Assembly: GCA_950295325.1 (NCBI GenBank)
Contig: OX485803.1
Location: 53,459,554 to 53,523,553, forward strand
DNA: 64,000 nucleotides
Reading direction: 5' to 3'
Origin: Polytrichum commune
Lineage: Eukaryota; Streptophyta; Polytrichopsida; Polytrichales; Polytrichaceae
The notes beneath the pieces are model-generated. The model worked only from the letters and a program-made list of their open reading frames with translations, was not told the DNA's origin and ran no database searches. The number at the start of each line of letters is the position of its first letter. Positions within the stretch are counted from its first letter, which is position 1. Below, one piece after another: positions 7,337 through 63,400 of this stretch. Both the position numbers and the translations under genes were made by a program.

Positions 7337-7804
7337 CATGCACACTCACCTCCGCCACCCTCCTTTCCACATGTCCCCACCGCATCTCCCCGAGAAGGCT
7401 TGGCATTCATCAGCTGCCGAACACATCGAGAACAATATTAAGAACATTGCCTCTCACCTTCAACATTTCCATCACCATCTGCTCCTCATCACTCATTACA
7501 CGTCTCCCTTTCCGCTTTTCGATTGCCTCATTGTCGCCTGCGAAGTTTGTGTCCTCCACGGAATCTTGAAATTGACGACTTGCCACTTTACGACTAGCTC
7601 ATTGTCTTTTGAATTTGTGTCCTCCACGCAACTTGAATCGACCTCCAGGACCAGTTTCATCAAAGGCTTTCCGGATTAGCTGAAGCGCACGCAGGGAAAA
7701 AGAAGACTTCGACCTCGACATTGAGTGGAACTTGGAAACCCTCACAAGGTTGCTCGCACTCCATTTTGTGTTGTTTGATAGTTGCAGCAAAAACATTCTG
7801 AGCT

Positions 7805-8569
7805 ATGGCGATGGCGACCATGGCGCTTTCCTCGAGTTTACCAACCCGTATGATGACGTCTCTCACATCCCCACGCTCCCAGCATCAGCAACAGAGGTAT
7901 TTGCATTCGCATTGCTCCCCCGCATTGATGAGGCGAGTGAGTGTCCCACATTCCACCTTCCTGTGCGGTAGTTCCACATCACTACGCAGCACACTCCTGC
8001 AGAAGACACAGAATTTCCAAGCTGGGAGATGCAATTCCTCCGCTGGTATCACTGCTCTGTCCATTCCATGGAACGAAGGAACGAAGAGCCTCGCAGTTGC
8101 GGTAGGCATTCCACTAGTGCTAGGCGTCGTGGACTCGCTGTTCAACAGCCCAGGCACCAAGTGGTACTTCGACCTGAAGAAACCTCGGTGGCAGCCACCT
8201 AGCTTTTTATTCGGTGGAGCGTGGAGTGTGCTGTACCCCCTCATGGGGCTTGCATCGTGGTTGGTGTGGGCGGAAGGAGGATGGGCGAAGCAAGCTTACC
8301 CTCTCACTCTGTACGCTGTTCAGCTCGCACTCAACCTCGGATGGCCAGCGCTTTTCTTCGGTGCCAAAAACTTGGGAGGTGCACTCGTGGACATCATCTG
8401 CCTTGACGTGGCACTCATTGCTACCGTGCTGGCATTCAAGCCTGTGAATCAAGTTGCAGCAAATTTGCTCAAACCCTACGTTGCCTGGGTGCTATTTGCA
8501 ACTGCCTTGAATTATAAGCTCTGGGACCTCAACAAGAGCGGGAGCAGTGGCCAGCCTTCCCCTGCTTAG
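7805..8569 (+). CDS. TSPO: TSPO/MBR family protein (tryptophan-rich sensory protein), organelle-targeted
   Basis: A single uninterrupted 254-codon exon encodes a five-helix TSPO. The start ATG lies in a strong plant context (GCTATGGCG). Residues 1-90 are rich in Ser, Thr, Arg and Gln and almost lack acidic residues, as in transit peptides. Predicted helices lie near residues 95-113, 130-155, 165-186, 190-211 and 221-240. Family signatures include KWYFDLKKPRWQPPSFLFG (119-137), with the W-x-P-P motif, then LALNLGWPALFFG (174-186) and PYVAWVLFATALNYKLWDLN (224-243). TSPOs bind tetrapyrroles, sterols or lipids in membranes; plant forms are tied to ABA and salt stress and found in mitochondria or the secretory pathway. 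The 90-residue leader here favours an organelle, but this is inferred. Upstream lie two ABRE-like boxes, and downstream sequence is duplicated. Plant TSPO genes are often intronless, which fits. Confidence 0.95.
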   Translation: MAMATMALSSSLPTRMMTSLTSPRSQHQQQRYLHSHCSPALMRRVSVPHSTFLCGSSTSLRSTLLQKTQNFQAGRCNSSAGITALSIPWNEGTKSLAVAVGIPLVLGVVDSLFNSPGTKWYFDLKKPRWQPPSFLFGGAWSVLYPLMGLASWLVWAEGGWAKQAYPLTLYAVQLALNLGWPALFFGAKNLGGALVDIICLDVALIATVLAFKPVNQVAANLLKPYVAWVLFATALNYKLWDLNKSGSSGQPSPA

Positions 8570-10994: not shown

Positions 10995-12306
<1,312 letters not shown>

Positions 12307-12564
12307 CGCTGCGAGGCTGCGCTGCAAGTCCTCCGACGCCGCGAAATCCTAACCTTGCGAAAAGAGGAAAGAAAGAAGCAGCTTCAGTCTTCCTTGGTAT
12401 CCTGCGAGAGGACGGGTCGGGTCGGGTCGGGCCGGTCCACCCGCGCTAGGCTGACTCGGGCCGGGCGGGGGCAGGGCAGGGGCGAACTTTTCCGGAGCGG
12501 GCAGGCGAGCTATACATTTTCGCGACGTCAAGACCTGACCTACTTTCTCCATGACTGATCGCTC
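12307..12564. other. GC-rich upstream region of L23A
   Basis: Probable promoter and 5' UTR of L23A on the minus strand. It contains tandem GGGTC units (12415-12435) and GGGCC/GGGCGGG-rich sequence to about 12485. I see no convincing TATA box. Confidence 0.4.
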
Positions 12565-14174: not shown

Positions 14175-14409
14175 GAGCAAAACAAAAGTGTTCTTTTCAG
14201 ACAAACCATTAACAAGTCGAAACCTTCAAACTCCTCCACAGATTTCACAATTTATCACCAGAGTTGACATGGGAATGTAATGGATAACATGGGAGCAAAA
14301 CAAGAGTGTTATTTCTAGACAAACCATTAACAAGTCAAAATCCTCAAACCCCTCCACAGATTTGGAAACATTTCACCAGAGTTGACATGGGAATGTGATG
14401 TATGGAGTT
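14175..14409. repeat. tandem duplication, 118-bp unit
   Basis: Two units offset by 118 bp share 'gagcaaaacaa', 'agacaaaccattaacaagtc', 'cccctccacagattt' (variant 'ctcctccacagattt') and 'accagagttgacatgggaat'. They lie directly left of the tRNA-Pro gene, on the 3' side of its transcript. Confidence 0.75.
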
Positions 14410-14447: not shown

Positions 14448-14519
14448 GGGGCACTGCGAGAATCGAACTCACGACCTCTCACACCCGAAGCGAGAATCAT
14501 ACCACTAGACCAAGTGCCC
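14448..14519 (-). tRNA. tRNA-Pro (anticodon CGG)
   Basis: The minus strand folds into a complete 72-nt cloverleaf. The acceptor stem is GGGCACT with AGTGCCC, all seven pairs intact, and the discriminator base is C. The D arm contains TGGTCTAGTGGTATGA, a good A box. The anticodon stem is CTCGC/GTGAG around the loop TTCGGGT, giving anticodon CGG. The T arm is GTGAG-TTCGATT-CTCGC, with B box AGTTCGATTCT. No intron is present, and the CCA is not encoded, as expected for a nuclear gene. It is very close to known plant tRNA-Pro. No TTTT run lies within about 70 bases downstream, which is unusual for a Pol III gene. Confidence 0.93.
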
Positions 14520-19789: not shown

Positions 19790-20907
19790 CTATGCAATAT
19801 TTTGGAATCTATGATGGCAGTAGGTGAATTCTATGAATTTGTATGGTGTTTGATGGGTTTTGGGGGGGTGCATGTATATATGGCTATCTATGGGGGGCCC
19901 TAGTATACATAATATGTCAAATCTTAGGCGGGCCCATGCATGTGCATATGTTGGGGAGGCATGTGAATTGTAATAACCATTCCAGGATTGTGATGTCTTG
20001 GGGCCAATCGTGTTGGTTGCCGGCATTTACTAGGGTATAGCACCTTGTGTGTTTGTTGGATTGGAGTGTGTGTGTTTGGTGCATTGCTTTGTTGTGTTGG
20101 GCTATGCGAAGGCCTTTTATGTGTGGGTGGGGGCAAGTGGAGGTAGGTGTGGCCATGTGTCAATTTTGTGGTTTGGGTAGAGTGTGAAGTTGGGGTTGGG
20201 ATATGCTAGTGGCAGATGATGTTCTTTCGGTGGTTACCCATGTATTGAGCATATCGGAATTTTAAGGTTTGTATAATTTGTGCATCATATATGCCTAAGG
20301 CTTGTCAGAAGTGGTTGAAGAGTTTTGATTGACTTGCTCATTAGACACTCATTTGTTGACATATGTGGATTTAGATTTGCAATTCATAGTTCTAGTTCAA
20401 AGTGGTATTTGTTTATGTAAGTTTGGAGGTTGCAAGTTTCTCCGTGATGTTTGCTTGTTGGGATTCCGTTGAGCCAATAAGGTATGGTGTGTGCAATGTG
20501 TATGTGGGATCTGGGGATTGGTTTGTTGTTGGTGGTTCCTTCGCTTCCTAGTTGGTTTGCGATTTCGTTGCCCAAGATTCCGGTGTGTGCTCTAACTTTT
20601 TGTAACGTTATGTTGTGTTTGGTCCATAGAATTTGGTGGATTATGGCTGAGTAAGTAGTTTGTCGGGGTAGTTGTGTTGGGATGAGGAGGGGAGTCGGAT
20701 GTGATTGTTAATGAGATATATGTTGTTGTGACTATCAGTAAATATGTATGTGTTTTGCGATTGGTATTTTGTGGCGGGTGAGGGCAATGAATATAGTGTA
20801 GAGTTCCAAGCGTAGCATGTTTGGTAGTCCAAGGAGTTTTTCTGCAATATGGAGGTTATTATTTGGACTATATACTCATATATAAGAGAGTAGTCTTTCT
20901 TCAACAA
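19790..20907 (-). pseudogene. decayed LINE (non-LTR retrotransposon) 3' end: RNase H plus C-terminal Cys/His region
   Basis: Read on the minus strand, frame segments at 20907-20641 and 20638-20384 give an RNase H domain. The first has AWNSTLYSLPSP and IFTDSHNNIYLI, the 'tDs' motif. The second has KVRAHTGILGNEIANQLGSE, the classical H-x-G-x-x-G-N-E-x-A-D-type end with Asn in place of Asp. Then come LKFRYAQYMGNHRKNIICH (20286-20230), DTWPHLPP, CPHPHIKGLRIAQHNKA, TLVNAGN, RFDILCILGPP and FIEFTYCHHRF. Together these match the tail of a LINE family ending in a Cys/His knuckle. At least three frame changes and several stops break it, and two knuckle Cys are lost. No reverse transcriptase core remains upstream, so the copy is 5'-truncated, as is usual for LINEs. 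Confidence 0.8.
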
Positions 20908-23966: not shown

Positions 23967-26900
23967 TTACCCACCGAACCTTGGCCCTGCAAGTGTGGGA
24001 AACCTCTCCACAGCCACTTTCCAGACGTCTTGAAACTCATCGGTCTCCAAAACACGCGCAATCTTTGGCACCACAGAGATTTTCTCTTTATCTGAAGACC
24101 AGATCATGATGCCCAGGTACTGCTGAACCTCATGGGGGCGAAGTCCTTCCAACACGTAGGGTAATAAGCTGGAATGAGAAGTTTCCATCACTGACATAGC
24201 CTGGCCAACCAAAGGTTCCTGTTTCTTGGTACCATACCCAGCTAATTGCAGCAAAGGAAGTTGCTCCTTCTCTTCTTCCTGGAAATGTTCCACGGTGTGA
24301 ACCTGCATAAATGTGACTCTGGAATTTAGTTGAGCTCCCTAAGGTCAGCACACCTAGAACCAACAGTGAGCATATTTTCTATATTTGGTGTTTTCTTTTT
24401 TGCAAGATCAAGAGGATCCCAACGCTTTAAAAAACGCATCGTTTGGATACTGTATGCAAAAGCTATAAGGGTTTAAAGTTTCCTTTGTAGGCGACCTAAA
24501 ACTAACACCTGTATTAGATGTGCAGATGGTGTACATCCACATAATCAATATGTACCTGTCTGCAAGATTTCTACGTGTTGGTTTTAGGTCAGGTGTTGGT
24601 TTTGGGTGTACATACCTTACATCCCTCCTAATCTATCTATCAAGGTCTTTTCCACCTACAGCCATTAACTCCATATAAGTTTGACACTCTAGTATATAAA
24701 CATGCTTGGACAACCTCAGAAGCTCAGCCTAACGCCTTCAATTAGGGTGTATTACCATTTCATATGCCTTATTATAAAACATAATAATGCTTTTCATGGT
24801 AGAAAATTTATATGTGTTGTAAGAAGTTATAGCACTGTGCAAATGGTAATCCACACCAATTGAATTTAGCGGTGGGATAACAGAAAGGAAATATGGAAAT
24901 TACAACAAAAAACAAAGCAATTTAAAAGAACCCAACTGATCGGTGTAGCATCTCCTAGAACTATCTGACCAGTTCTTTATACAGTACAACACCATTAGCT
25001 TTTGCAAGGAAGGTAAGGCATGTATACCCAAAACCAACACTATGTACCACGGTCATACATTTGGGGGTTTCAAATGTATGAAAACTAGTTTGGGCCACCC
25101 ATGCACATGAATGAATGTCCTAGGCTATCCCCACAGTGTCAAATCAACTTGCCACTGCCAACAGCCGACCATTTTTGGAACTTTGAAATGGCAACTACGT
25201 CAATGCTCATCCTTTCTCACGGTTTCAGAGTTCCAAAATGTATAGTAGATGATACAGTATGTTGGTTTTAGGGCTATGTGTTGGGCTTGAGTACGACTAC
25301 ATTAGAGACTAGAGGCTCACCTGAAGGGATTCCAAACGGGTCAGTAGAGAAGACATAGCTTCAATGTGGTCTGCAGATCCTTGCCGTAAAGCCACGACGC
25401 CTTTTATGTCCTCACGGACACCATTCATCACTGGCAAATCTCGGGCATGGTCTTTCAATGCCGAAGCTGTCAGCTCTGTTACAAAAGGAATTTGGTCAGT
25501 ATCACTAAATTAGTACTTGAGTAGAAGTTAGAACTCAATCCATAAACAAATTAACTCACCAGAACTATTGTAAAATAATTTATTCAAACTGCAACCCAGA
25601 ACTATTGATTCATATGTCATCCTAGTCTTGGCAAAGCATTTTCAAATGTCTCACAGCCACGACCTTGTGATGAAACCCAGTAGAAAGTCTGTAGTGACAA
25701 TGCATGTGAAATGTTGCAACCAAATACAGCAATTTATGAGTTCCTTGGAATACAAAACAGTTAAAAAGAACTCAAAACGCCTTTGAAGCATTTAAGAACA
25801 AGACTATGAGCTCTGAATTTATTTTTTCTTCCAGTTTACACACAACATGGCAGACAAAAAGCCGATACATTCTCTCCCAAAAAAAAACTGTAAATAAAGT
25901 ACCCACTTATATCAAGCACCAAAAGTGAGGTGGCACTCTCAGGAGATTTATACCTGGGTCAGCTGTCTCCAGTAAAGGGAAGATGACCCTCTCCTCCATT
26001 TGAGCATGCTCTTGCATGAGTTGCAATAAGCGGCCGAATGCTTTTGGGAGCTCTTTCAACTGCACCCAAAGCACAGTCCTCTTCTTCGTGTCCATGGACT
26101 GTTTATTGGTGCTCTCAAGGCCCTTCACCAGTTGCACAAAATTCTCTAAATGCCTAATTATGCTCCTGTGTTGTAAGATGGTAAAATGTATGATGGGTTG
26201 AGGGGGCTTCTCAATGAAGGATTTCACCACAGAGTCCTTACACAAATCCATACCCACCTGCACAGGCTTGTAATACTTGAAAGTGCACATTGCAGACTTA
26301 TATGCCAACAACCTTGGGTAGGAGGTTAACCCAATGCCCCTTATGTAAGTTACAAAATCCATCCGAGCAAGAAAAGGAATTAGGTAGACATCCACAAGGG
26401 TGAATTCGGAGCCCAAGAAATAGTTCCCATGTTGCTGTTGCACCTTAATCCCACTATCCAAATGCTCTAGGGCATCGTTTAACCTTGACTCAAGAGCTAC
26501 CTGTAAGAATGGGTCCCCATCATGTAATAGTTCCTCAACTAAAGGAGTAAATGAATCTCGAATATATGCAACCCAATATCGCACAACCTTTTTCAGAGAA
26601 TTTGGAACAAGGGTTGGGTCTTTGAAAGATTCCTCAATGTAGTCCACAATTGCATCAGTTGAGCCAGACAGCTTGTGGTCACCATAGTGTAAGACTGGAA
26701 ACTGTCCATCTGGACTTATAGAGGCCAAATCCTCTCCTTTGCAAGTTTTGAGGTCCTCTGGCATCACCAAAGTGGCCTTCACTGGCACACCCTGTAATAA
26801 AATACATATGACAACCACAATGGCAACTATAAGATAACAGAGTACATTCAAATTCAGCACTTAAATACTTTGATAAAGACAGTCAAGACGCCCTGTGTGA

Positions 26901-27368
26901 TCTGCCTAATTGGTATTTTGATTTATCTTTCCTCATCACATTGATTGATGAGGAAAGATGACTAAACATACTTTGGTTTACTTAGCATGTAAGCAGATGG
27001 TGATCGGAGTCAGACAACTCCAGGGGAAGAAATTGCTCACAAGGGCTTACTCAATCAAGGTACCACTAAGGTACAGAATATCACACCCACTGAATTCTCT
27101 TGGGCATGCACTCACTCAAAGTAATGAATAGACATGAAAAAAATCACTGTTTTCATGAAATAACTCTACATCTTTTATGTACCTTGTAAAGTAAGGCAAT
27201 CCTTATGCGCTGTGTGTATGGACAAGTAACATCTCCAATCAGTTTCACTTTCCCAGCATCCTCGTCTATGTAAGTCGGCGATGACGCCCAAGATGGGACC
27301 ACAGTGGAAGCTCTAGTGTTCTCTCCATGGTTTTTCTCATGCTTGGCTTTTTGCAGACACCCTCCCAT
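23967..27368 (-). CDS. GST-hemerythrin fusion (GSTH-class glutathione S-transferase), four exons
   Basis: Exons are 27368-27183, 26791-25954, 25475-25321 and 24302-23967. All introns are GT-AG and phases agree, giving 504 residues. Residues 41-118 form a thioredoxin-fold GST N-domain (KVKLIGDVTCPYTQRIRIA) with a CPY motif at 49-51, so a cysteine-type GST like DHAR, lambda and omega classes. The C-domain runs to about 240 and holds NYFLGSEFTLVDVYLIPFLA (185-204). Residues 260-415 form a hemerythrin-like helical bundle with likely metal ligands H270/H276, H324-x3-E328, H351, H395 and H399-x3-E403. GST-hemerythrin fusions were reported as class GSTH in Physcomitrella; activity here is inferred. 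Cys favours thiol transfer or dehydroascorbate reduction over conjugation, and the di-iron bundle may sense O2, iron or peroxide. The protein starts MGGC, recalling a myristoyl/palmitoyl N-terminus, but Gln6 departs from consensus. Start context is AAAATGGGA. Confidence 0.9.
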
Positions 27369-34081: not shown

Positions 34082-35105
34082 GGGGGTCATATTCACCCCC
34101 AATCAGGAATTGTAACACTCAATGAGGCAAACAAAGCATAGAGGCCAAACTGCATGTAGTGTAGTATCCACACATGGAGTCACAAGGGGTTTCAATGAAT
34201 CAAGAAATGACATGTGGCAAAATTGGGGGGTGAGTCGATTATGTGGTGTCGGAATAGGGTGGAGCCCCTCTAAGTACACCGGTACTGTGCACGAGAATAT
34301 TGCGGTCCCCATGTAATGTAAGCTTAAATGTAAGAAATGCATGCCGATTGTGGGCTTTAAACTAGAGCTTTGGTGCGGATTAGAAATCACTATGGACTCT
34401 AGAGCATTCTTGTGGCCCAAATGCAGTAACGTGACTAACAACAATCTGCCCTCTACATCTGTTAATCCGGGGTTTATATTCACCCCAATCAGAATTCTTC
34501 ACACTTATCAAGGCAACAAATTAAAGCATAGAGGCCAAACTGCATGTAGTGTAGTTCCCACACGTGGAGTCGCAAGGGGTTTTGACGAATCAAGAAATGA
34601 CATGTGGCAGAATTGGAGGGGGAGTCGATTACGTGGTGTCGGAATAGGGTGGAGCCCCTCTAAGTACATCGGCATTCTGCAGGAGAACATTGCGGTCCCA
34701 ATATAATTAAGCTTAAATGTAAGAAACGCATGCCGATTGTGGACTTTAAACCAGAGATTTGGTGCGGATTACAAATCACTATGGGCTCCAGAGCATTAGT
34801 ATGCCCCACAGTAACGTGACCACAATTTGCCCTTTATATATGTTAATCATGGGTTTATATATATCCACCCCAATCAGAAACTCTCCACACTTAACGAGGC
34901 AACAAAGTAAAGCATGGAGGGCAAACTGCATGTAGTGTAGTTCCCACACGTGGAGTCGCAAGGGGTTTCGACGAATCGAGAAATGACATGTGGCAGAATT
35001 GGAGGGGGAGTCGATTACGTGGTGTCGGAATAGGGTGGAGCCCCCTGTAAGTACGTCGGTACTCTGCTGGAGAATACTGGGGTCCCAATGTAATATGTAA
35101 GCTTT
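34082..35105. repeat. tandem array, 390-bp unit, about 2.6 copies (R10)
   Basis: The word 'gaggccaaactgcatgtag' recurs at 34141, 34531 and (one change) 34917, giving periods of 390 and 386 bp. Each unit also carries 'catggagtc(a/g)caaggggttt', 'gaaatgacatgtggca', 'ggtgtcggaatagggtggag', 'gcatgccgattgtg' and 'ttggtgcggatta'. Units are 85-90% alike by eye. No coding frame is preserved across all units. A diverged piece lies at 40055-40185. Confidence 0.85.
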
Positions 35106-35709
35106 AAGTGTAGACTCGCATGCTGACAGGCCTGCAAGTCCAGTAACAAGTACTCTGATTACACCAGGTTACCATAACTGCTGCCAAGCTTGAAGTCGTA
35201 CTTCATATATAGCTCCTGGATTTTGCTCGCATTCTACCAACAGCCAATATATATATATGGACTCTTTCAGTTTAGTAGTACTGCATGTTGGGATGTGTAA
35301 GTAAGTAAGTAAGTACATATTTACATTGTTGACTTCGTGTACCGGGCCGCCTTTTTATAATTAGTCCTCGCTATGTATGTGTAAGGTCGACTTCCTTAGA
35401 TGCCTATAATGTTTTCCCTTGTTTCTCGTCAAGCATTCATGTGGATGGATTGTGTGATTATAACAATCACATGGCCAAAGGTTTTGATTTAGGGTTGGCA
35501 ATCTAGAACGCCCCCCCCCCCCAAAAAAAACGCCTAGAACATGCACAAATTGGATGAGAATTTCCAAAACAAACCCTCGATTATCTCAATCATAGAGGCT
35601 TCCAAAATGTAGTTATACCAAATGCACATCAACTCTTTTTCAACTCTTTTTTGAGGTCATTTGGATTAAGCTAGAAGTGGTCTCACTAATGAAATGGGTC
35701 AATGTTGTC
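35106..35709. other. gene-free stretch
   Basis: A 12-C run at 35511-35522 abuts 8 A. Nothing else is recognised. Confidence 0.4.
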
Positions 35710-60400: not shown

Positions 60401-63400
60401 AAAAGTCCCATTGATGTGAACATGTCAGGTCACATAACATGTTCCTTATACCAGCTACCCTAGAAGCCATAAAAGTCCCTAGACTATATAATTCATTTAG
60501 TGTGGCATTAGAATTAATGTGCTACATATTTAACATTGGCCACATTAATATACAAACTCTTTATGATTGATGTTCGCAATGTTAGAAAGTATTCAAGCCT
60601 CTTGCCACAGTAGGAACATAGTTTTATGTTCTGATAGTACTGACCCACATTAATGTACATTCATGGTAAATCATGCAGCCCACTATAATAAACATTAGTG
60701 AGAAAAGGTGTCACTAAAAAAAAATAATGTACTCCACGGCTATTAGTCTAATGTTTATTGTTGTGGGTCGATGATGGATATTATGGTCTCCACTAAATCG
60801 GATATATAGTGTAATACTTATTGAAAAGACAATTTGAGAAGATATTAGAAACACAAAAACACAACCAAACATAAGTACCAAGCTCCCCTGGAGTGCAAAT
60901 TCTCTCGCCAATAGACCATATCATAGGAAAGGTGAGTCTTTCAGACCTATTATCAGTGCCCATGTACACTGTATGAAGGAGTCGACTAGCAAATTCTTCT
61001 GCTCTTTCTGGTACTTCACCCTTCTGGTAATTACCAATACGAACAGCATCTGAGGTAACTTGCTTGTCACCATCCTTCACAGCTGTATGAAAAGCCAATC
61101 GTAGTATAATGAGACTTGCGATTTTCATGTAGGACTCTAGAGTAGAAAAGATTGCCAATTGCCAAGAGATGGGAAGAAATAAAATGATACCAACCTTTCA
61201 CAACAAGCTGGCACATGCAGCCAACAATGGCAGCCACTGATGAACTATCAGCTCCTCCTGAAAGTGGCAACAGGTATCCAGTAGCCCCGCTACGGCGTAA
61301 ATAATCCCAGAGCCAACAAGCTGGACCAAGAGCTATCTCCTCACAAGGATCGTGGTAGCGCACCTGCAATGTCCACAATGCATTATCAAGATCAGGAAAT
61401 GGCTGATAAATCACCACACTAAACATCTGATGTAATTTGGCATTAAAATTGGTGTGCCGTGCCAAGTAGAGTGGTCTTCATGCTTGTCATGTAGCACCGA
61501 GTGTCATATGACAGCCTCTCTAGGTGCCACCCAGTGATTTCAAAAGAGTTATTGTGGATCAGTGATGAACAGCATGGGCCACATTTAATCAGATGTTTAG
61601 TGTAGACATTGAATTTCAAAGAGTTCTTACAATTCATGATTGAGATTGAGATCTTTGCTTTGCACTAACAATTTGTAAATTTGCAAGTTCAAATTGAAGT
61701 AACCTTTACCTCTACAGGATTGGTGGGTACAAAATTGGTCATGTTTAAGGGCCGAGAAAGTTTAAACTTCACTGGCACGAATGGAATCCGGGGTTCTTGA
61801 CTGGCTTGTTCTCTTAAACTGCTCACCGTACCCCTGTGTCCTGCAACCTGCAAGGTTCACATCTTTATGCTCAGTACTCCGTACATAGCAGCAAACATCA
61901 TTCATTCCAACTATTTGAGATTTCTATCTAGTATTAGGTCAGCAACTCAGAACGAAGAAATTGTGGTTTTGCAGTCTGCAACATGCAAGGTAGCCCTCAA
62001 CATATGATGCAGCTGAGCGATGAAGTGTTGAAAAGCAATTCTTACGGTGTCCAGGTCCACCACTGCTACTACAACTTCAACATCTTTCATAGAGAACTGT
62101 GAACCTTGTGCCACAACATCTCCATTTACTATCACAGAGGCACATCCATCTGCCAAGATTTTGCCAACACCACATTGTTTAAACATCATACCAATGCTTT
62201 GAAAGTCTTGAGTCAGGAAGAAAACTTGATCCAGTATGAACAATTTATTGGCAATCTGAACCAAACAAACCACCTCATGGCAGGAATTTTCAATAAGTAG
62301 CACTGTCAGCCTTGTACATACAAGAAGCAGTAAGAACACTATCTCGACTGCAATAGATTAGGCCATCACGAAATAAATCGGAAGAACCTGCTGCAACTAT
62401 ACAAGGGGACGGGCAAGATAAGAAACAGGAATATTCGATGTAAGAAGTATCACCAGCTTATGAACAACAGCACCAAGTGAGAGACATGCCACAATGAGCA
62501 GGAGGTATGGATATAAGGTATGTGGGCCTTATACATGTGGTCACTCTCCTTAATTGGACACCTATATTTGAGCGGTACATGGCAAGGTTTGTAGTTAAGA
62601 GCTCCTATAACTTTTACAAAATCCTATAACTCCTAATTCCTATAGGTCTCTCACTTTGGCCTCCTATAACTTTTGCATCTCAACTCCAATGAACCCCAAA
62701 CTTGATATGACAAGTCTCAAGATTCATCACATTTGCTAACTTAATGAAACAATTCCCAAGTCAATCCAACGACCAAAATTCTGTGTGGAGTTGGAAGTAC
62801 CCACAATAGACATGCTTTAACAATTAAAATCATCAGATTACCAAAAATAGAGAGGTACGGAAAATAACCATAATAAAGACGGCCTCCATCACAGCCCTGT
62901 TGGTTTGCATAAAGGTAGACACCACCAGCCTTGGCGGTAGCATTTTGCATGAGCTCCAGCCTTGTATTAAGTTTTCGGAGCTGGTGATGGCTGCCACTCC
63001 CGTTTGCAATAATCTCAACACCATTCAAAGACAAACCTGTGTGAGGTGACGATGGCGTGAAAAGCTCCTCACATGTCTCTGAGGCCACATTCCTACATAA
63101 CACCAAATCTCCTCACAATGGTCAGGCCAAGAAAATTTGTTCACATCTCTATTCCCGATTGGATATGAGAAGGCGCATAATCACCTGTAATCGATGACCC
63201 TGCCATGGAATAACCACTACGTCCAGTGATGGTCATGTGTTGTCCTCCATCAGCTATAGTAAGCACCCAGTCCCTACCTCGAGCTAGATTGGGCACCTAC
63301 TACTACAGGCAAACCGTGACAGGGCTCCTCGGATCCATTAAGGTATGCGGGCCTTACTCAATTGCTTTTCTTAATCAGACACCTATATTTGAGTGGTGTG

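Follow-up and report, generated by a model that had tools for sequence, protein, structure and literature searches.

The window analyzed here, a stretch of 64,000 nucleotides from Polytrichum commune taken as a whole, carries on its minus strand an intact gene for a 504-residue protein in which a cysteine-type glutathione transferase (Cys-GST) is followed in the same chain by a hemerythrin-like helical bundle. This protein is almost certainly a member of the plant GST class GSTH that retains a complete set of putative diiron ligands. Fusions of this kind are already in print, and what we describe is a further GSTH, for which the ligands are refined and a likely kin of the second half is proposed. 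By sequence comparison, the bundle together with the first part of the tail that follows it, called unannotated in PMC4138524, appears closest to the hemerythrin modules of BRUTUS type, above all to the second module (H2) of Arabidopsis BRUTUS.

The fusion gene and its class

On the minus strand, splicing and translation of positions 27368-23967 gave four exons, separated by three GT-AG introns, and the 504-residue product (Table 1). The splice junctions, at residues 62/63, 342 and 393/394, each fall within the GST_N_3 or the Hemerythrin match, which supports the exon choice, and an in-frame TGA is found as the third codon upstream of the ATG. Exon 2 alone, free of stop codons, connects the GST N-domain, by way of the C-domain, with helices 1 and 2 of the hemerythrin bundle. 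Because the junction between the two halves lies within this uninterrupted exon, they are joined in the genome and no guess about splicing is needed. An arrangement as two separate genes or transcripts is rejected on the DNA, since the junction sits in one open exon; that the halves are expressed as separate transcripts, which the preliminary description of this DNA had named as a possible objection, is very unlikely from the DNA alone. A tblastn search with the protein revealed no second copy of the gene in the window (next match at E 0.21).

Eleven Pfam families matched the protein at E up to 1, seven of them above their curated cut-offs and four, GST-like or Tom37, below. GST_N_3 covered residues 43-121 (E 2.3e-13), the GST_C_2 match followed, and Hemerythrin (PF01814) covered residues 264-411 with an E value of 1.1e-10 and 42.5 bits against a cut-off of 25.3. 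The GST-hemerythrin fusion put forward in the preliminary description is borne out by this search of the spliced product: the frame is intact, GST_N, GST_C and hemerythrin are each represented by a model above its cut-off, and the residues singled out there (C49, P50, Y51, H270, H276, H324, E328, H351, H395, H399 and E403) all stand at the positions given for them. The thiol site, read as CPY at 49-51 and taken as the mark of a cysteine-type GST, proved to be in full CPYT, a monothiol form.

Regarding the GST half, the counterparts of the mostly conserved Cys-GST residues of PMC4138524, placed by eye from motif positions, are C49, P50, P94, S106, G189 and D196. When the whole protein is compared with PDB sequences, poplar GST lambda 3 ranks first (E 2.1e-12); entries for stringent starvation protein A come next and dehydroascorbate reductases lower. 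The protein has five cysteines, at positions 4, 49, 79, 231 and 246, and since none lies in residues 247-504, a cysteine relay within that half is excluded. The N-terminus reads MGGC (27342-27368, minus strand), which is reminiscent of a lipid-anchored start; N-myristoylation at this site was considered and rejected, the PROSITE pattern being broken by Q6. Among 30 of 55 plasmid records, the top bit score against the GST half (75 bits, 26% identity) belonged to a cyanobacterial GST from Pseudanabaena (record L001, 2998-3666), and the annotated end of that gene leaves no space for a hemerythrin domain.

The published marks of class GSTH are a CP[F/Y]T motif at about position 50 or 70, [F/Y]P, GS and a length of about 510 residues (PMC4138524). 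The window protein has GST_N, GST_C and then hemerythrin within a single chain, CPYT at 49-52, F93 and P94 at the cis-proline, and G105 and S106 at the glutathione serine. Of its 504 residues, 93 lie beyond the Pfam hemerythrin end at 411, compared with about 510 and about 100 in the class. In domain order, CPYT, FP, GS and length it fits all of these marks, in agreement with the class proposed in the preliminary description; the further remark made there, that little is defined about what GSTH does, is in line with the reviews PMC4138524 and PMC11449216.

Members of the class are usually over 50% identical to each other (PMC4138524). They were found in that study only in Physcomitrella, with eight genes, and Selaginella, with two, and have been reported also from Marchantia and Anthoceros, while being absent from the angiosperms and algae examined in PMC9937507. 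Contrary surveys list "GSTH" genes in angiosperms, four in Brassica napus (PMC6591421) and five in Medicago (PMC7894904). Three of the five Medicago genes have 12 to 14 exons (PMC7894904), against four coding exons in the window gene; our guess is that such many-exon angiosperm genes may be BRUTUS-type genes classed by their hemerythrin domain. Four Physcomitrella GSTH proteins carrying a C-terminal green fluorescent protein were both cytosolic and nuclear (PMC7894904, PMC4138524).

Diiron ligand columns and the predicted bundle

Two alignments were made of the hemerythrin half. The first joined the window protein with the three hemerythrin modules (H1, H2 and H3) of Arabidopsis BRUTUS, whose sequence, here and in all other comparisons, was a provisional version that we checked in two ways. 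In Pfam it matched a CHY finger, a RING, a zinc ribbon and, in three places, hemerythrin; the ligands known from print (PMC12022348), H173 and E177, occur in it at exactly these positions. The second alignment joined the window protein with 46 bacterial HHE sequences, drawn from 80 loci out of 259 relatives; this set was seeded by an alignment of three bacterial plasmid proteins and not by the window protein.

Six ligand columns, H270, H324, E328, H351, H399 and E403, were invariant in both alignments. Their order is that of the plant diiron motif, H-HxxxE-H-HxxxE (PMC12022348), and with PF01814 above its cut-off this motif places the half in the hemerythrin/HHE superfamily. The identity of the hemerythrin half to each BRUTUS module is only 19% in the alignment with the provisional sequence, yet the six columns are retained. 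Of the metal-ligand candidates named in the preliminary description, these six thus stand as a complete set, while H276 and H395 are ruled out as ligands, both lying outside the ligand columns in both alignments. The position of a gap of 9-10 residues before H324 is uncertain and varies between the alignments. A complete set of putative diiron ligands in the hemerythrin half is thereby supported at the level of sequence.

A structural model of residues 248-504 was built with 44 bacterial rows of the 80 HHE loci as its alignment and gave a mean predicted local distance difference test score (pLDDT) of 82.2 and a predicted TM score (pTM) of 0.76. Three alignments were rejected as input for this model, one because its ends were untrimmed, one because the gap before H324 had not changed and one because it put helix 1 fragments on helix 3. 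Along the bundle, the pLDDT of ten-residue blocks was mostly 88 to 96, with one block at 80, and it fell after the bundle from 83 to 51. Four long helices are predicted, at residues 261-290, 310-339, 341-370 and 376-413, and each ligand group is placed on a helix of its own. Counted from one end of the up-down bundle, the modeled ligands stand at heights of 9, 15/11, 10 and 14/10 residues. These matching heights are what a shared site requires in the model, an argument from helix positions and not from distances. The profile of the bacterial-row alignment behind the model matches YtfE, NMB1532, ScdA and FBXL5 in the PDB with E values below 0.001.

Kinship of the hemerythrin half and candidate functions

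The likeness to BRUTUS was quantified by local alignment against shuffled sequences. With 300 shuffles, the core of the hemerythrin half reached z scores of 5.4, 9.8 and 2.4 against H1, H2 and H3, respectively, the core with the tail 6.4, 13.8 and 5.1, and the tail alone 0.3, 5.8 and 2.1. Bacterial controls from 78 of the 80 loci peaked at 6.6 for the core (median 2.8) and at 2.7 for the tail. By core score H2 alone exceeds the controls, because the best bacterial row exceeds both H1 and H3. A control of equal length, for which the bacterial proteins were extended to their stop codons (79 of the 80 loci, 200 shuffles), yielded 6.2, 16.3 and 4.6 for core and tail against H1, H2 and H3, whereas the bacterial scores had a median of 2.7 and peaked at 4.9, which puts H2 far above the controls and H1 above them; no shuffle, of the 300 or of the 200, scored as high as the match of core and tail to H2. 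A profile of the three BRUTUS modules scored 26.9 bits on residues 303-459, whereas 40 profiles, each made from three random bacterial sequences, had a median of 2.1 bits and reached 9.7 at most, with none extending past residue 412.

A separate test with 1000 shuffles gave z scores of 7.7 for the core and 6.5 for the tail against H2, and core scores of 2.3 for H1 and 3.0 for H3. The H1 tail showed no significant match in this test (296 of 1000 shuffles as high), and that of H3 was significant but out of register. As a mismatched control, the core against the H2 tail gave a z score of 3.4 (7 of 1000 shuffles as high), and the GST half did not match BRUTUS in any of six comparisons. A 112-residue fragment of FBXL5 scored 2.7 against the core; it hardly reaches the tail and is hence an unequal control.

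A different origin can be considered, in which the hemerythrin half descends not from a BRUTUS/HRZ type but from a hemerythrin gene that mosses reportedly gained from fungi. A fungal-derived hemerythrin gene has been reported in early land plants and mosses (PMC5908804), a small tree keeps GSTH outside the BRUTUS modules, and BRUTUS H3 and the H1 tail do no better than the controls. We nevertheless regard this origin as unlikely, given that the tail after helix 4 matches H2 in both tests (z 5.8 and 6.5) where 78 bacterial rows reach 2.7 at the highest, and that the three-module profile attains 26.9 bits against at most 9.7 for the random bacterial profiles. Single-sequence searches with the hemerythrin half, which are weak on origin, found no match in plasmids or phages (E up to 1) and confirmed none of 43 pattern stretches in genome contigs. 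The provisional BRUTUS H1 had no match in plasmids. Among viral contigs, none of three stretches was confirmed in a scan with an alignment containing the provisional BRUTUS modules, and in three more scans, run with GST and HHE rows, none of 29, none of 3 and none of 79 stretches were confirmed.

We propose that the window protein is a monothiol Cys-GST tuned by the iron and oxidant state of its diiron bundle, a mechanism that, taken whole and with the coupling we infer, we consider evenly poised between right and wrong. The bundle would bind a diiron centre, filling with iron and being oxidized by O2 or H2O2 as in BRUTUS; the state of this centre may alter the stability or the conformation of the GST half, which would thereby be tuned in the glutathione-dependent removal of glutathione from metabolites or in a dehydroascorbate-type reduction. 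Because residues 247-504 are without cysteine, coupling through conformation or through exchange of dissolved glutathione or peroxide would be more likely than a cysteine relay in the hemerythrin half. The plant proteins BTS and BTSL2 bind diiron centres that are oxidized by O2 and H2O2 and are partly labile once reduced, buffers for BTS-N required mercaptoethanol or glutathione against precipitation, and the authors of that study suggest a role for glutathione in plant iron sensing (PMC12022348). Within the Cys-GSTs, the lambda and GHR classes have confirmed deglutathionylation activity (PMC11449216).

A bolder reading, in which GSTH puts the iron-sensing module of plant BRUTUS/HRZ type to a second use and the diiron site gates the Cys-GST by iron and oxidant, we hold as a tentative possibility and on balance doubt. 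If it were true, plants would have coupled one type of sensor to protein breakdown in one case and to glutathione chemistry in the other, and the roughly 100 unannotated residues of the class would be in part the tail of a BRUTUS/HRZ-type module. The excerpts of the open-licence literature contain no statement tying GSTH to BRUTUS. The fusion unites glutathione chemistry and putative iron sensing in one chain, and the candidate diiron site and the likeness to iron sensors make the function of GSTH testable, through the effect of iron or peroxide on glutathione activity.

Other functions were weighed against this iron- and oxidant-tuned GST. The diiron site could itself be catalytic, reducing peroxide or O2 while the GST half recycles the oxidized product with glutathione, which would make the protein a two-step peroxidase or oxidase and not a sensor. 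Such a role would fit the oxidation of BRUTUS diiron centres by O2 and H2O2 and the apparent intactness of both halves, but neither a substrate nor turnover is known and the corresponding domains of BRUTUS and FBXL5 are described as sensors (PMC12022348), and we judge it unlikely. Alternatively, the hemerythrin half may be a metal-free structural extension of a protein that acts as an ordinary Cys-GST, lambda-like or dehydroascorbate reductase-like. Poplar GST lambda 3 is indeed the top PDB sequence match of the whole protein, and in the BTSL clade the second module is predicted to fold as a bundle although its site is incomplete (PMC12022348); the six ligand columns retained despite so low an identity to each BRUTUS module speak against it and leave it quite unlikely. 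A module binding iron or other metals, for storage or metal detoxification, seems to us very unlikely. Hemerythrin GSTs are said in the introductions of PMC5662610 and PMC12827570 to conjugate glutathione with metal ions, and a review table lists defence against reactive oxygen species and detoxification (PMC12837394). The complete ligand set would suit this role as well, but two irons per chain would make a poor store. Judging from the reference number, the source that PMC5662610 cites for the metal-ion statement appears to be the moss study of Liu et al. 2013.

Several points weigh against an iron- or oxidant-tuned GSTH related to BRUTUS. The invariance of the ligands refers to BRUTUS and bacterial rows aligned with a single GSTH sequence. 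The fold of the model is partly imposed by the bacterial HHE alignment supplied, and a full-length prediction without alignment reached a mean pLDDT of only 36.4. Among 308 Foldseek matches at E up to 10, no PDB fold had an E value of 0.001 or better: 3cax headed the list (E 0.066, with a TM of 0.49 on the query), and the FBXL5 hemerythrin chains, 8 of the best 50 of the 308 (E 0.74 to 1.8), were intermixed with designed helix bundles and unrelated coiled proteins. With the core only, the best of the 78 bacterial rows (z 6.6) lies above H1 (5.4) and H3 (2.4), and in the equal-length test H3 (4.6) falls within the bacterial range (best control 4.9). In a small unrooted tree that includes 13 bacterial rows, GSTH sits on a very long branch and is not nested among the BRUTUS modules. 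Finally, GSTI and GSTH are stated to be uncharacterized (PMC4138524), and a measured activity was found for no GSTH in the excerpts of the open-licence literature.

The locus and comparison with known systems

Table 1. Coordinates of the GSTH-type gene and of its features in the window
Feature	Coordinates	Strand	Basis
Whole gene, start to stop codon	23967..27368	-	splicing and translation; Pfam
Exon 1, residues 1-62, holds the CPYT active site	27183..27368	-	splicing and translation
Exon 2, residues 63-341 and base 1 of codon 342, holds the GST-hemerythrin junction	25954..26791	-	single open frame
Exon 3, remainder of codon 342 to residue 393	25321..25475	-	splicing and translation
Exon 4, residues 394-504 and stop	23967..24302	-	splicing and translation
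CPYT thiol motif, residues 49-52	27213..27224	-	class motif CP[F/Y]T in PMC4138524
GST_C_2 match, residues 163-226, E 2e-9	26300..26491	-	Pfam
H270, helix 1 ligand column	26168..26170	-	invariant in both alignments
H324-x3-E328, helix 2 ligand columns	25994..26008	-	invariant in both alignments
H351, helix 3 ligand column	25447..25449	-	invariant in both alignments
H399-x3-E403, helix 4 ligand columns	24273..24287	-	invariant in both alignments
C-terminal tail, residues 412-504	23970..24248	-	initial portion similar to the stretch that follows H2 in BRUTUS (provisional sequence)

Elsewhere in the window, a single open frame at 7802-8566 (+) encodes a TSPO/MBR protein (residues 99-240 of 254, Pfam E 9.6e-47), which is likely a plant TSPO and has a long extension at its N-terminus. 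The first part of a gene for ribosomal protein L23 lies at 11866-12348 (-), matched by Ribosomal_L23eN and Ribosomal_L23 in Pfam, and its frame appears to continue into an intron. Likely exons of a glutamine-dependent NAD synthetase were found at 61070-63112 (-), where Pfam matches carbon-nitrogen hydrolase at 62744-63112 (E 2.8e-9) and, weakly and just below its cut-off, NAD_synthase at 61070-61477. A fragment of RNase H at 20387-20707 (-), below the Pfam cut-off, is probably the remnant of a retroelement. At 34133-35123 a 390-base unit is arrayed in tandem (2.5 copies, 87% matches), and a tRNA-Pro (CGG) is predicted at 14448-14519 (-), near a 118-base tandem duplication at 14175-14400.

Respiratory hemerythrins of the annelid type are defined by seven ligands; their helix 3 carries the motif HxxxH and their helix 4 the motif HxxxxD. 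The window protein differs from them at both places, with L355 at the +4 position of H351 and H399-x3-E403 in helix 4. YtfE/RIC and the other bacterial HHE proteins share with it the HHE bundle and the ligand columns, but score low against it, and none of the 78 bacterial rows has a match to the BRUTUS-like tail. Human FBXL5, described as an iron-sensing diiron bundle (PMC12022348), contributes fold matches among the best 50 of 308 and a weak sequence match, limited to a fragment that hardly covers the tail; its F-box and leucine-rich repeats have no counterpart among the Pfam matches of the window protein at E up to 1.

On the GST side, poplar GST lambda 3 and the dehydroascorbate reductases, the best and the lower PDB matches, are Cys-GST relatives of the window protein that are without a hemerythrin half and differ in class marks (PMC4138524). 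The BRUTUS/HRZ iron-sensing E3 ligases share the motif H-HxxxE-H-HxxxE, and the bundle with the first part of the tail is nearest to H2. They carry three modules where the window protein has one, and H3 is no nearer than the bacterial controls; they are ligases, whereas the window protein has a GST half and, in Pfam, matches neither a RING nor a CHY finger nor a zinc ribbon. Class GSTH of Physcomitrella, Selaginella, Marchantia and Anthoceros has the same domain order, length, CPYT, FP, GS and about 100 residues after the hemerythrin domain. The eight Physcomitrella genes are described as a single cluster (PMC4138524), against one copy in these 64 kb. The marks compared all agree between this class and the window protein, a likeness by published marks and not by percent identity.

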